Assembly (NCBI GenBank): GCA_028712885.1
Contig: JAQTPK010000016.1
Coordinates: 1 to 53,594, forward strand
Direction: 5' to 3'
Source: Syntrophales bacterium
GTDB taxonomy: Bacteria > Desulfobacterota > Syntrophia > Syntrophales > UBA4778
DNA length: 53,594 bases
Below are positions 360-12,475 of this stretch, one piece after another. The position numbers were made by a program, and so were the translations under genes. Every line of letters starts with the position of its first letter. The stretch's first letter is position 1. The notes under the pieces are model-generated. The model searched no databases, was not told the DNA's origin, and was given only the letters and a program-made list of their open reading frames with translations.

Positions 360-1592
360 ATGCTGAAATTATTCAATTCCATGGGCAAGCGGATGGAAGA
401 ATTCGTCCCGGTAAATCCGAACCCGGTGAACATATTCACCTGCGGTCCCTCCGTTTACCAGCGGCCGCACATCGGTAATTTCCGGACTTTCCTGTTTGAG
501 GACGTGCTGGTCCGCTATCTGGAATACTCCGGATACCGCGTACGTCGCGGCATGAACATAACCGATATTGAGGATAAAGCGATCGCCCAGGCCGGAAAAG
601 AAAAGGCTGGCCTGGAAGAAATAGCCGATCGGAACACAAGATTGTTTCTGGAGGAAATGGACGCGCTCGGGGCGAAAAGACCCGACGTGCTCCCCCGCGC
701 CACCCGCTCCGTGGAGGAGGCCGTGCGCATCATAGAGCGTCTGCTCGACCTCGGAATTGCCTATCGCCATAAAGGGGATATATTTTTCGATCCGCTGCGG
801 TTTCCGGGTTTCGGCAGGCTCTACGGACTCGACATGTCCCGATGGCCGCGGAAGAAAGTCCGCTACCGCCGCGATACATACCCCGGAATGAGATGGAACC
901 TGGGAGATTTCATTCTGTGGCACAAATGGAGGGGGGGTAATGAAGAGTTCTGGGAAACCCGCCTGGGCAAAGGACGCCCGTCATGGAATGTGCAGGACCC
1001 GAGCATGATAAACCCGCACTTTCACGAAACCCTTTCCATTTACTGCGGCGGGGTCGACAACCTGATCCGGCATCACGATTACATTATCGCCGTCCTCGAG
1101 TCGCTGCGTCCGTATCCGGTGGCGAAGTACTGGCTGCATTGCCGCCATCTGCTCGTCGCGGGAAAAAAGATGTCCAAAAGCAGGGGCAACATCGTTTATA
1201 CTGAAAAATTGTTGAGGCGCGGCTACAGCGCCGCTGAAGTACGCTTTTTTCTCATCGACAATCATTACCGAAAAGAAATAGACTACTCCGACGAATCCAT
1301 GACGGCTGCGGCGGCAAGGCTTGCGGAGCTTAGAACCGCGGTCGGCCTCGTCGCCGACAGGAGCGGAAGCGAACCGCTCGATCCGGAAGCGGCGGACCGG
1401 GTGAGGCAGGCTTTCAGCAGGTCCATGGATGACGACCTGGACGTCCGGTCGGCGGTGGACGGGGTTCTTGGCGCAATGCTCGCGGCGCCCCCGGAACAGA
1501 TAGACCCTTCCGAAGCGGGAGGCATGGTTCAGGCGGCGGCGGAAATCGACTCGGTTCTGAAAGTGATATTCTCAGCGGCAGGTGAAAAATGA
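360..1592 (+). CDS. Cysteinyl-tRNA synthetase homologue lacking two zinc ligands
   Basis: Class I aminoacyl-tRNA-synthetase fold, 410 residues, close to CysRS but shorter than the usual 460-500. The HIGH motif is H37-I-G-N40, preceded by Cys28 at the first zinc-ligand position, and the KMSKS motif is intact at 270-274. CysRS normally holds a Zn2+ that selects the cysteine thiol through Cys28, Cys209, His234 and Glu238 (E. coli numbering). Here the second Cys position (WHIECS in the family) reads WNVQDP, giving Asp213. The HHENE motif reads HHDYI, so His238 remains but the Glu is Ile242. This implies altered metal binding and possibly a different amino acid or amine substrate. MshC-type cysteine ligases keep their zinc ligands, so it is not an obvious MshC. 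It overlaps the next gene by ATGA. It could still be a divergent true CysRS. Confidence 0.75.
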   Translation: MLKLFNSMGKRMEEFVPVNPNPVNIFTCGPSVYQRPHIGNFRTFLFEDVLVRYLEYSGYRVRRGMNITDIEDKAIAQAGKEKAGLEEIADRNTRLFLEEMDALGAKRPDVLPRATRSVEEAVRIIERLLDLGIAYRHKGDIFFDPLRFPGFGRLYGLDMSRWPRKKVRYRRDTYPGMRWNLGDFILWHKWRGGNEEFWETRLGKGRPSWNVQDPSMINPHFHETLSIYCGGVDNLIRHHDYIIAVLESLRPYPVAKYWLHCRHLLVAGKKMSKSRGNIVYTEKLLRRGYSAAEVRFFLIDNHYRKEIDYSDESMTAAAARLAELRTAVGLVADRSGSEPLDPEAADRVRQAFSRSMDDDLDVRSAVDGVLGAMLAAPPEQIDPSEAGGMVQAAAEIDSVLKVIFSAAGEK

Positions 1593-9673: not shown

Positions 9674-12475
9674 ATGCCAAGCATTTCGGACCTTGAAAAA
9701 CTCGGCCAATCCGTCTGGCTCGATTACATCCGGAGGTATTTTATCGTCTCAGGGGAGCTTGCCGATCTTATCCGCGGCGGTTTGCGCGGTATTACATCCA
9801 ATCCGACCATTTTCGAAAGCGCCCTCTCGGGGAGCTCGGATTACGATGAAGCTCTGCGGAGGTTTGCCGGGGAGGGCCTTTCAGCGGCCGAAATCTTCGA
9901 CCGCCTCACCATGGACGATATCGGGCTCGCCGCGGATATGTTCCTGCCTGTATTCTCTTCCCTGGACGGAGCGGACGGTTTCGTCAGCATCGAAACCAGC
10001 CCTCTTCTGGCGGACGACACTGAAGGGACGATTTCTGAATTCCGGCGGATCGCAGCGGCCCTCGGCCGCCCCAATGTGATGATCAAGATTCCGGCGACCG
10101 AGGCGGGAATCAGGGCTCTGGAACGGCTTACGGCGGAGGGTTTCAGCGTCAATATGACCCTGATCTTTTCCGGCGGGCAATACCGCGCCGTGGCGGAGGC
10201 ATATATAGCCGGGATCGAAAAGCTGAGCGCCGCGGGCGGAGACCCGAAGAAGGTGTCATCGGTAGCCTCTTTCTTCGTGAGCCGCGTGGATTCCTCCATT
10301 GACCGGCTGCTGGACGCGAGGGGAGAAGCCGGGCTCCAGGGCAGGATCGCCGTTGCCAGCGCCAAGCTCGCATACGCGGATTTCAGAAGATATTTTTCCG
10401 GCCCGCGCTGGGAAGCCCTGGCCGCGGGGGGCGCCCGCCTGCAGCGCCCGCTCTGGGCCAGCACCGGAACGAAGAATCCCCTTTACTCCGAAACGGCATA
10501 TGTGGACAGCCTCATCGGGGCCGACACCGTAAGCACCATGCCGATCGCCACGCTGAACGCGTTTCGCCGCCGGGGGACGGCGGCCGCAACTGTTCAGGAG
10601 GGAGTCGAAGAAGCGGGATCCGCCGTCGGAAAGCTGCGGGATCTTGGAATAGATCTCGAAGAGACAGCCCGCGTTCTGCTTCGCGAAGGCATCGACCTGT
10701 TCGTCCGCTCCTACCGGTCGGCGTTGGCCAATATCGACAGGAAAAGAGAAGAGGTCGCGCGCGGTCGAAAGAGAATGGCTGAGCGGCTCGGAGAGCATGC
10801 GCCCGCGGTGGAAAAGGCCGTGGCCCGGATGCAGAACGACAAAGCGGCTGAGCGGCTGTGGAACGGTGATTACACACTCTGGAAGAACGACCCGAAGGAG
10901 ATTTCGAACCGGCTCGGGTGGCTCCACAGTCCGGAGAAAATGCTGGACCATGCGGATGATCTCAAACGGCTGGGCGATGATCTGCGGGCGGAGGGGTTCT
11001 CCAGGGCGCTTCTCCTCGGAATGGGAGGGTCCAGTCTCGCGCCGGAGGTCTTTTCGAGAATATTCGGATCCGGAAAAGGATACCCGTCTCTCGAGGTCCT
11101 GGACAGCACCGACCCCGATGCAGTGCTCGCCTGCGAAAAGAGAGCGGCGGCGGCCAAAACGGTTTACATCGTATCCACCAAGTCGGGCGATACGGTCGAA
11201 ACCCTTTCCCTTTTCCGGTTTTTCTTCCGCCGGGAGCAGGAACGTATGGGGCTGGAAGAGGCCGCCCGGCGCTTCATCGCCATCACGGACCCGGGAAGCC
11301 GGCTGGCGGAAATTGCGAAAAAGCTCCGCTTCCGCTCCGTTTATCTCAACGATCCTGAAATCGGGGGTCGTTATTCCGCCCTGTCCTTCTTCGGGCTGGC
11401 GCCGGCGGCCATTGCGGGCATCGATATCCGGAAACTTCTCGACAGCGCGGTCCGGATGATGCGGGAATGCGAATCCTGCGCCGACAGGCGTTCCGGCGGA
11501 AATGAAGGCGTCCGCCTGGGCGCCATCATGGGAACAATGGCCGGCGCAGGCAGGGACAAGCTGACACTGATAACGCCGCCCTCCCTTTCCCCCTTCGGGG
11601 ACTGGCTGGAACAATTGATCGCCGAAAGCACCGGAAAGGAAGGGAAAGGCATTCTGCCCGTTGTGCATGAAGCAACCGGGCCGCCGGAGAGCTACGGCGG
11701 CGACCGCCTGTTCGTCAGCCTAGCCTTCGATGCCGGACCGGAGGCGCTGACCGGACTCGAAAAAGCAGGACATCCGGTTATTTCACTCCGCCTTTCCGAT
11801 CCTTGCGACATCGGCGGACAGATATTCCTCTGGGAAGCGGCAACGGCCCTGGCCTGCCATTTACTGGGCATCAATCCTTTCGATCAGCCGAATGTTGAAT
11901 CCGCCAAGTCGGCGACGCGCAATATTGTTTCGGAATACATTGAGACCTGCGCCGTTCCGGTTCCCGCGCCCGAGATTATTTCCGACGGAATCAGCGTTTC
12001 CGGATGGCGCGCGGAGACCCCGGAGAGCGCGCTGCGGGAATTTGTGGCGGGGGCGAAAGACGGCGATTACGTTGCTCTCCAGGTTTTCATCGAGCCGTCC
12101 AGGGAACTGGATATCATTCTGGCCGACCTGAGAAACAGGATAAGGATTTTCAGCAGGAAAGCCGTCACGCTCGGCTACGGCCCGCGCTATCTCCATTCAA
12201 CGGGCCAGCTTCATAAGGGAGACCGGGGGAACGGCCTTTTTGTCCAGTTCACGGCGGACGATCTTCAGGACGCCTCCGTTCCCGACGATCCCATGTCGGA
12301 CGCGTCTTCCATTACGTTCGGCGTGCTGAAAAAAGCCCAGGCGCTCGGGGACAGAAAGGCGCTTGTTCTGGCGCGCAGACGGGTAATCCAGTTTCATTTC
12401 GACAACGCCGAAAAAGGTCTGCGACGGCTGGCGGAGGCCTTTCCGGCAGCTCCGACCCGCCGCAAAGGAAAATGA
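9674..12475 (+). CDS. tal/pgi: Bifunctional transaldolase / glucose-6-phosphate isomerase
   Basis: 933-residue fusion. Residues 1-365 are a transaldolase: GITSNPTIFESALSGS near the start and the Schiff-base Lys138 in NVMIKIPATEAG. Residues about 375-933 are a phosphoglucose isomerase, with GMGGSSLAPEV, STKSGDTVETLS and a C-terminal QLHKGD segment. The fusion links the non-oxidative pentose phosphate pathway to glycolysis in one polypeptide; such fusions are known in several bacteria. ATGA overlap with rpiA and tight spacing to gnd and zwf make this the head of a pentose-phosphate operon. Confidence 0.95.
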   Translation: MPSISDLEKLGQSVWLDYIRRYFIVSGELADLIRGGLRGITSNPTIFESALSGSSDYDEALRRFAGEGLSAAEIFDRLTMDDIGLAADMFLPVFSSLDGADGFVSIETSPLLADDTEGTISEFRRIAAALGRPNVMIKIPATEAGIRALERLTAEGFSVNMTLIFSGGQYRAVAEAYIAGIEKLSAAGGDPKKVSSVASFFVSRVDSSIDRLLDARGEAGLQGRIAVASAKLAYADFRRYFSGPRWEALAAGGARLQRPLWASTGTKNPLYSETAYVDSLIGADTVSTMPIATLNAFRRRGTAAATVQEGVEEAGSAVGKLRDLGIDLEETARVLLREGIDLFVRSYRSALANIDRKREEVARGRKRMAERLGEHAPAVEKAVARMQNDKAAERLWNGDYTLWKNDPKEISNRLGWLHSPEKMLDHADDLKRLGDDLRAEGFSRALLLGMGGSSLAPEVFSRIFGSGKGYPSLEVLDSTDPDAVLACEKRAAAAKTVYIVSTKSGDTVETLSLFRFFFRREQERMGLEEAARRFIAITDPGSRLAEIAKKLRFRSVYLNDPEIGGRYSALSFFGLAPAAIAGIDIRKLLDSAVRMMRECESCADRRSGGNEGVRLGAIMGTMAGAGRDKLTLITPPSLSPFGDWLEQLIAESTGKEGKGILPVVHEATGPPESYGGDRLFVSLAFDAGPEALTGLEKAGHPVISLRLSDPCDIGGQIFLWEAATALACHLLGINPFDQPNVESAKSATRNIVSEYIETCAVPVPAPEIISDGISVSGWRAETPESALREFVAGAKDGDYVALQVFIEPSRELDIILADLRNRIRIFSRKAVTLGYGPRYLHSTGQLHKGDRGNGLFVQFTADDLQDASVPDDPMSDASSITFGVLKKAQALGDRKALVLARRRVIQFHFDNAEKGLRRLAEAFPAAPTRRKGK

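Follow-up and report, generated by a model that had tools for sequence, protein, structure and literature searches.

A Putative CysRS-Derived Ligase Family of Desulfobacterota and Halobacteriota with an Aspartate in Place of a Zinc-Ligand Cysteine

The Ligase Locus

The window, by which we mean the whole stretch of 53,594 nucleotides analyzed here from a Syntrophales bacterium contig, carries on its forward strand at positions 360–1592 an ATG-initiated gene for a 410-aa CysRS/MshC-like amino-acid ligase, which profile matches, alignment, and a structural model place in a group that we refer to as the D-type family. About 110 bases upstream lies the C-terminal end of a MATE exporter gene (2–250, +) that is cut by the contig start; the 82-aa fragment scores 23.7 bits with the MatE profile (cut-off 24.9) and has 66% identity over 79 aa to the MATE protein adjoining the ortholog in genome G017. 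Downstream, a gene for a cation diffusion facilitator (CDF) of the zinc-transporter type (1589–2791, +; PF01545, 93.9 bits; PF16916, 84.2 bits) begins with an ATG that overlaps the ligase stop codon by 4 bases. Promoter and terminator patterns close to the ligase gene occur at chance level, and the only RNA element found in the window is one tRNA-Gln. Farther along, a 933-aa ORF (9674–12475, +) reads by eye as a fusion of transaldolase with glucose-6-phosphate isomerase and precedes ribose-5-phosphate isomerase, 6-phosphogluconate dehydrogenase, and glucose-6-phosphate dehydrogenase-like ORFs, which by eye form a pentose-phosphate cluster.

With PF01406, the catalytic domain of class I CysRS, the ligase scores 239.8 bits (E 5.8e-71), and its best NCBIfam match is cysS TIGR00435 with 284.7 bits, under the equivalog cut-off of 340. 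The match to the MshC model TIGR03447 is weaker (182.5 bits vs. a curated cut-off of 485.1), and no gene of the genome reaches this cut-off. The first-pass annotation had described the protein as short and ending soon after the KMSKS region; it is indeed short in that the domain search gave no match to the C-terminal anticodon-binding domain CysS_C (PF23493), but approximately 135 residues follow KMSKS and form a helical bundle that is also present in MshC. An AlphaFold2 model built from a 25-row alignment has a mean pLDDT of 93.3, and its residues 1–408 superpose on CysRS 8qhp (Z 47.0, 2.0 Å, 390 residues) and residues 1–404 on MshC 3c8z (Z 41.8, 2.0 Å, 363 residues).

Three CysRS homologs are encoded in the genome, which is 99% complete (G000): the window protein, a canonical CysS of 493 aa in which the four zinc ligands are all present (G000:C12, L002), and a cysteine synthase–CysRS fusion. 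The first-pass annotation had set its reading against a genome with no other cysS and an intact zinc site in the window protein; we looked for a second, canonical cysS and found it, and the window protein is therefore not the housekeeping CysRS. The fusion (L003:1330–3651, −; G000:C68) is a 774-aa protein in which a cysteine synthase (PALP) domain is joined to a full-length CysRS, anticodon domain included; CysS_C was found both here and in the canonical CysRS. Most genomes sampled from the order contain such a CysK–CysRS fusion (open frames of ~760–840 aa) in addition to a canonical cysS; among the aligned fusions, three have Val for the zinc-ligand Glu and Cys for the next His, and three others keep Glu.

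Conservation of the Predicted Metal Site

Orthologs were collected from the genome contigs, relatives, the phylum, the order, and one archaeal phylum, resulting in a monophyletic family of at least 25 aligned members from Desulfobacterota and Halobacteriota. The family is present in 13 of 395 genomes of the phylum sample (by profile score, with three CysK-fusion matches left out), 12 of 155 of the order sample, and 8 of 247 of the archaeal phylum sample. All 25 sequences are 403–421 aa long, and the scanned members lack the CysRS anticodon domain.

Residue equivalences were taken from pairwise alignments with solved CysRS structures, E. coli 1li5 among them, and from a 61-row alignment. The E. 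coli row of the latter agrees with the 1li5 alignment; an M. tuberculosis MshC sequence was used only for retrieving the M. smegmatis MshC sequence from the PDB. The alignments bear out the earlier observation of a CysRS homolog with an intact Cys28 and two altered ligands. Cys28 (codon 441–443, +) corresponds to the zinc ligand C28 of E. coli CysRS and C43 of MshC, and His238 (1071–1073, +) to E. coli H234 and MshC H256; Asp213 (996–998, +) replaces the ligand Cys209, and Ile242 (1083–1085, +) replaces the ligand Glu238. Both nucleotide-binding signatures had also been called intact. This holds for KMSKS (residues 270–274; 1167–1181, +), but the HIGH signature (residues 37–40; 468–479, +) reads HIGN, a variant also found in some true CysRS such as 6ujd and 3sp1.

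All 25 D-type sequences, which come from two domains of life, share Cys28, Asp213, and His238, and they also share Gln212, Arg237, Asp240, and Tyr241. Position 242 drifts among I, T, S, N, and V and is Glu in none, so that, together with the fixed Asp213, a sequencing accident or the drift of a single copy can be set aside. At the Asp213-equivalent position, every complete canonical CysRS, MshC, V-type (see below), and CysK-fusion row of the 61-row alignment has Cys. The loss of Glu has a counterpart in M. smegmatis MshC, whose zinc is coordinated by C43, C231, H256, and the thiol of the substrate (PMC9736012) and whose residue at the Glu238 position is Ser (HHEYS in the PDB sequence). Because MshC binds zinc and cysteine without this Glu, its loss is compatible with a working zinc–cysteine site, and the comparison of sequences identifies Cys209 to Asp, not the loss of Glu, as the actual novelty of the site. 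A zinc ion bound by Asp, Cys, and His activates the substrate thiol in protein farnesyltransferase (PMC4101490), a precedent by which the Cys/Asp/His set of D-type proteins would be chemically suited to a thiolate. The first-pass annotation had taken the altered ligands to imply either no metal or another substrate; its conclusion that the protein is no housekeeping CysRS stands, but the MshC and farnesyltransferase sites show that such ligand sets can bind both zinc and thiol.

Whether the site still holds a metal separates two readings. Since Cys28 and His238 are strictly conserved together with the new Asp, where drift would be expected had the metal been lost, their retention suggests that D-type proteins still use a metal. 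A pocket in which Asp213 touches the side chain of a nonthiol amino acid such as serine or 2,3-diaminopropionate with no metal present is an alternative that we consider unlikely. It would account for an Asp at a position where no complete canonical CysRS row has anything but Cys and for the accompanying changes in neighboring residues (H206N or S, E208Q, P233R, E236D, and N237Y), which show that the pocket has been rebuilt; however, Cys28 and His238, invariant in 25 of 25 members, would be needless in a metal-free pocket, and the ligand set has the same charge as before.

Conservation beyond the metal site bears on catalysis. The MshC residues that bind the alpha-amino group, T46, T83, and the G44 main chain, correspond to Ser31, Thr68, and Gly29 of the window protein, and their invariance throughout the family supports an alpha-amino acid as the substrate. 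A degenerate or purely regulatory paralog without catalysis, as the altered ligand set and the patchy distribution (13 of 395 phylum genomes) might suggest, is very improbable given that the ATP-binding motifs, the alpha-amino pocket, and approximately 65 positions are invariant in bacterial and archaeal members, and that the 42–60% identity across families points to purifying selection on the active site.

Phylogeny and Relation to MshC

In the phylogenetic tree, the 25 D-type rows form a single clade (100% SH-aLRT) with a group of archaeal paralogs, here called V-type, as its sister (94%). V-type proteins were found in Methanoperedens and an uncultured archaeon (L009:6713–7918, L010:289–1482, L011:8001–9206), and two uncultured archaea, at least one of them a Methanoperedens, each encode three homologs: canonical, V-type, and D-type (L010, L011). 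Like D-type proteins, V-type proteins have approximately 400 aa, no anticodon domain, and adjoining exporter genes; unlike them, they keep Cys209 and are changed only at Glu238, which is Val.

The D-type protein resembles MshC in having the CysRS fold over its full length, no anticodon domain, a similar length, equivalents of Cys28 and His238, no Glu238, and a CysRS encoded in the same genome. Most of these features would also be expected of a true mycothiol-type ligase orthologous to MshC, and a joint clade with MshC is not rejected by the AU test (p 0.115, with a single, long-branched MshC row). However, the window protein scores 182.5 bits against the TIGR03447 cut-off of 485.1, has Asp where MshC has C231, and is 28–30% identical to the solved MshC chains, and the best tree sets MshC on a long branch away from the D-type family, which it places beside the archaeal paralogs; orthology to MshC is thus hardly probable at all. 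With CysS of TIGR00435, the protein shares the catalytic domain, HIGN, KMSKS, and the equivalents of Cys28 and His234, but it has Asp for Cys209, no Glu238, no CysS_C, and a score under the equivalog cut-off.

No D-type member was found in IMG/VR, and a viral origin or spread of the family was rejected on this basis. In dozens of viral contigs from IMG/VR (L137–L184), a cysS-like gene lies no more than approximately 15 bases from the contig end, a pattern that would arise if prophage boundaries were placed next to a host cysS. In PLSDB, 503 Klebsiella plasmid records contain a CysRS homolog; the best ten of the matches listed show 33.7% identity to the window protein and bear the annotation cysS or cysteine--tRNA ligase. 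The open-access literature, to which our search was confined, contains no description of the family, and the D-type proteins are apparently an undescribed, conserved family of CysRS-derived ligases with MshC-like architecture.

Genome Context of D-Type Genes

Exporter genes adjoin D-type genes in both domains. In eight bacterial genomes (that of the window, G017, G058, G313, G741, G751, G765, and G767), a MATE gene on the same strand lies no more than approximately 0.2 kb upstream of the ligase gene. Most archaeal members have ABC-2 exporter genes beside them: at six archaeal D-type loci, an ABC-2 permease and ATPase are convergent with the ligase gene, the permease being 3–29 bases away. All three V-type loci have a codirectional ABC-2 permease gene 5–7 bases upstream. 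Common descent may explain the six convergent archaeal cases and likewise the MATE pairs of a single bacterial subclade, and the neighboring genes in several D-type subclades include no exporter. Genes near the loci of other subclades encode RaiA with an OsmC-hydrolase, a ferritin-like protein, or a superoxide dismutase. No CDF gene was seen beside the other D-type members, and we found no conserved acceptor-making gene beside D-type loci. A bacillithiol-type pathway was rejected for the genome of the window, in which BshC was not found and the two PIG-L deacetylases are both encoded in unrelated or polysaccharide-type regions.

Genome context also bears on a possible role in tRNA charging. 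CysRS* of Desulfobacterales lacks the anticodon domain and still charges a special tRNA, the selC* tRNA-Cys, and the published cysS* is located downstream of selC*–selB* (PMC7609411). A specialized synthetase of this kind, attaching cysteine to a nonstandard selC*-type tRNA, would fit the missing anticodon domain, the presence of CysRS* in Desulfobacterales, and the second CysRS in the genome. Compared by description, the D-type locus differs from CysRS* in lacking selC* and selB* neighbors: no selC-type tRNA adjoins the loci scanned with ARAGORN, no selB was recognized when the listed neighbors were read by eye, and the genome of the window has a single tRNA-Sec and no selC*-like tRNA-Cys. 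We therefore regard tRNA charging of this type as quite improbable.

Proposed Function

Our preferred reading, held with slightly less than even confidence, is that D-type proteins are MshC-like, CysRS-derived ligases that use a Cys/Asp/His metal site to join a thiol amino acid to a small, non-tRNA acceptor, the product being exported. The first-pass annotation had raised the modification of a small molecule as one possibility, and a small-molecule ligase is the functional class that we predict as the best fit. For the metal, the amino acid, the acceptor, and export, we infer a course of events like that of MshC. The enzyme would bind ATP and an alpha-amino acid, and the HIGN and KMSKS motifs would form the aminoacyl-adenylate. 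In the side-chain pocket, a metal, most likely Zn2+, would be held by Cys28, Asp213, and His238 with one site left for the substrate thiolate, and given this open site the amino acid would most likely be cysteine or another thiol amino acid. The aminoacyl group would then pass, independently of any tRNA anticodon, to a small acceptor that is probably an amine, and the product would probably be exported, for which the linkage to exporter genes speaks. Evidence against this ligase reading is that CysRS* charges tRNA even though it has no anticodon domain, that the Asp could contact a nonthiol side chain such as an amine or a hydroxyl, that D-type loci showed no conserved gene for making an acceptor, and that several subclades have no exporter linkage.

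A bolder reading, which we regard as possible though rather doubtful, is that the D-type family is a second CysRS-derived ligase, evolved independently of MshC and with a farnesyltransferase-like Cys/Asp/His zinc site, that makes an undescribed, exported small molecule containing cysteine or a different thiol amino acid, and that this molecule is common to several anaerobic lineages of Desulfobacterota and to methane-cycling archaea.

Implications

With TIGR00435 as their best NCBIfam match, D-type sequences are probably annotated as cysteine--tRNA ligases in public genomes, and such annotations would mislead metabolic reconstructions. The zinc site of CysRS is the textbook basis of cysteine selection without editing, and the conserved exchange of Cys for Asp in the D-type family tests whether a metal held by Cys, Asp, and His is still thiol-selective or now favors another amino acid. 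Little is known of the low-molecular-weight thiols of anaerobes and methane-cycling archaea; if D-type proteins are ligases, they would point to the occurrence in these organisms of an as yet undescribed small thiol or conjugate.
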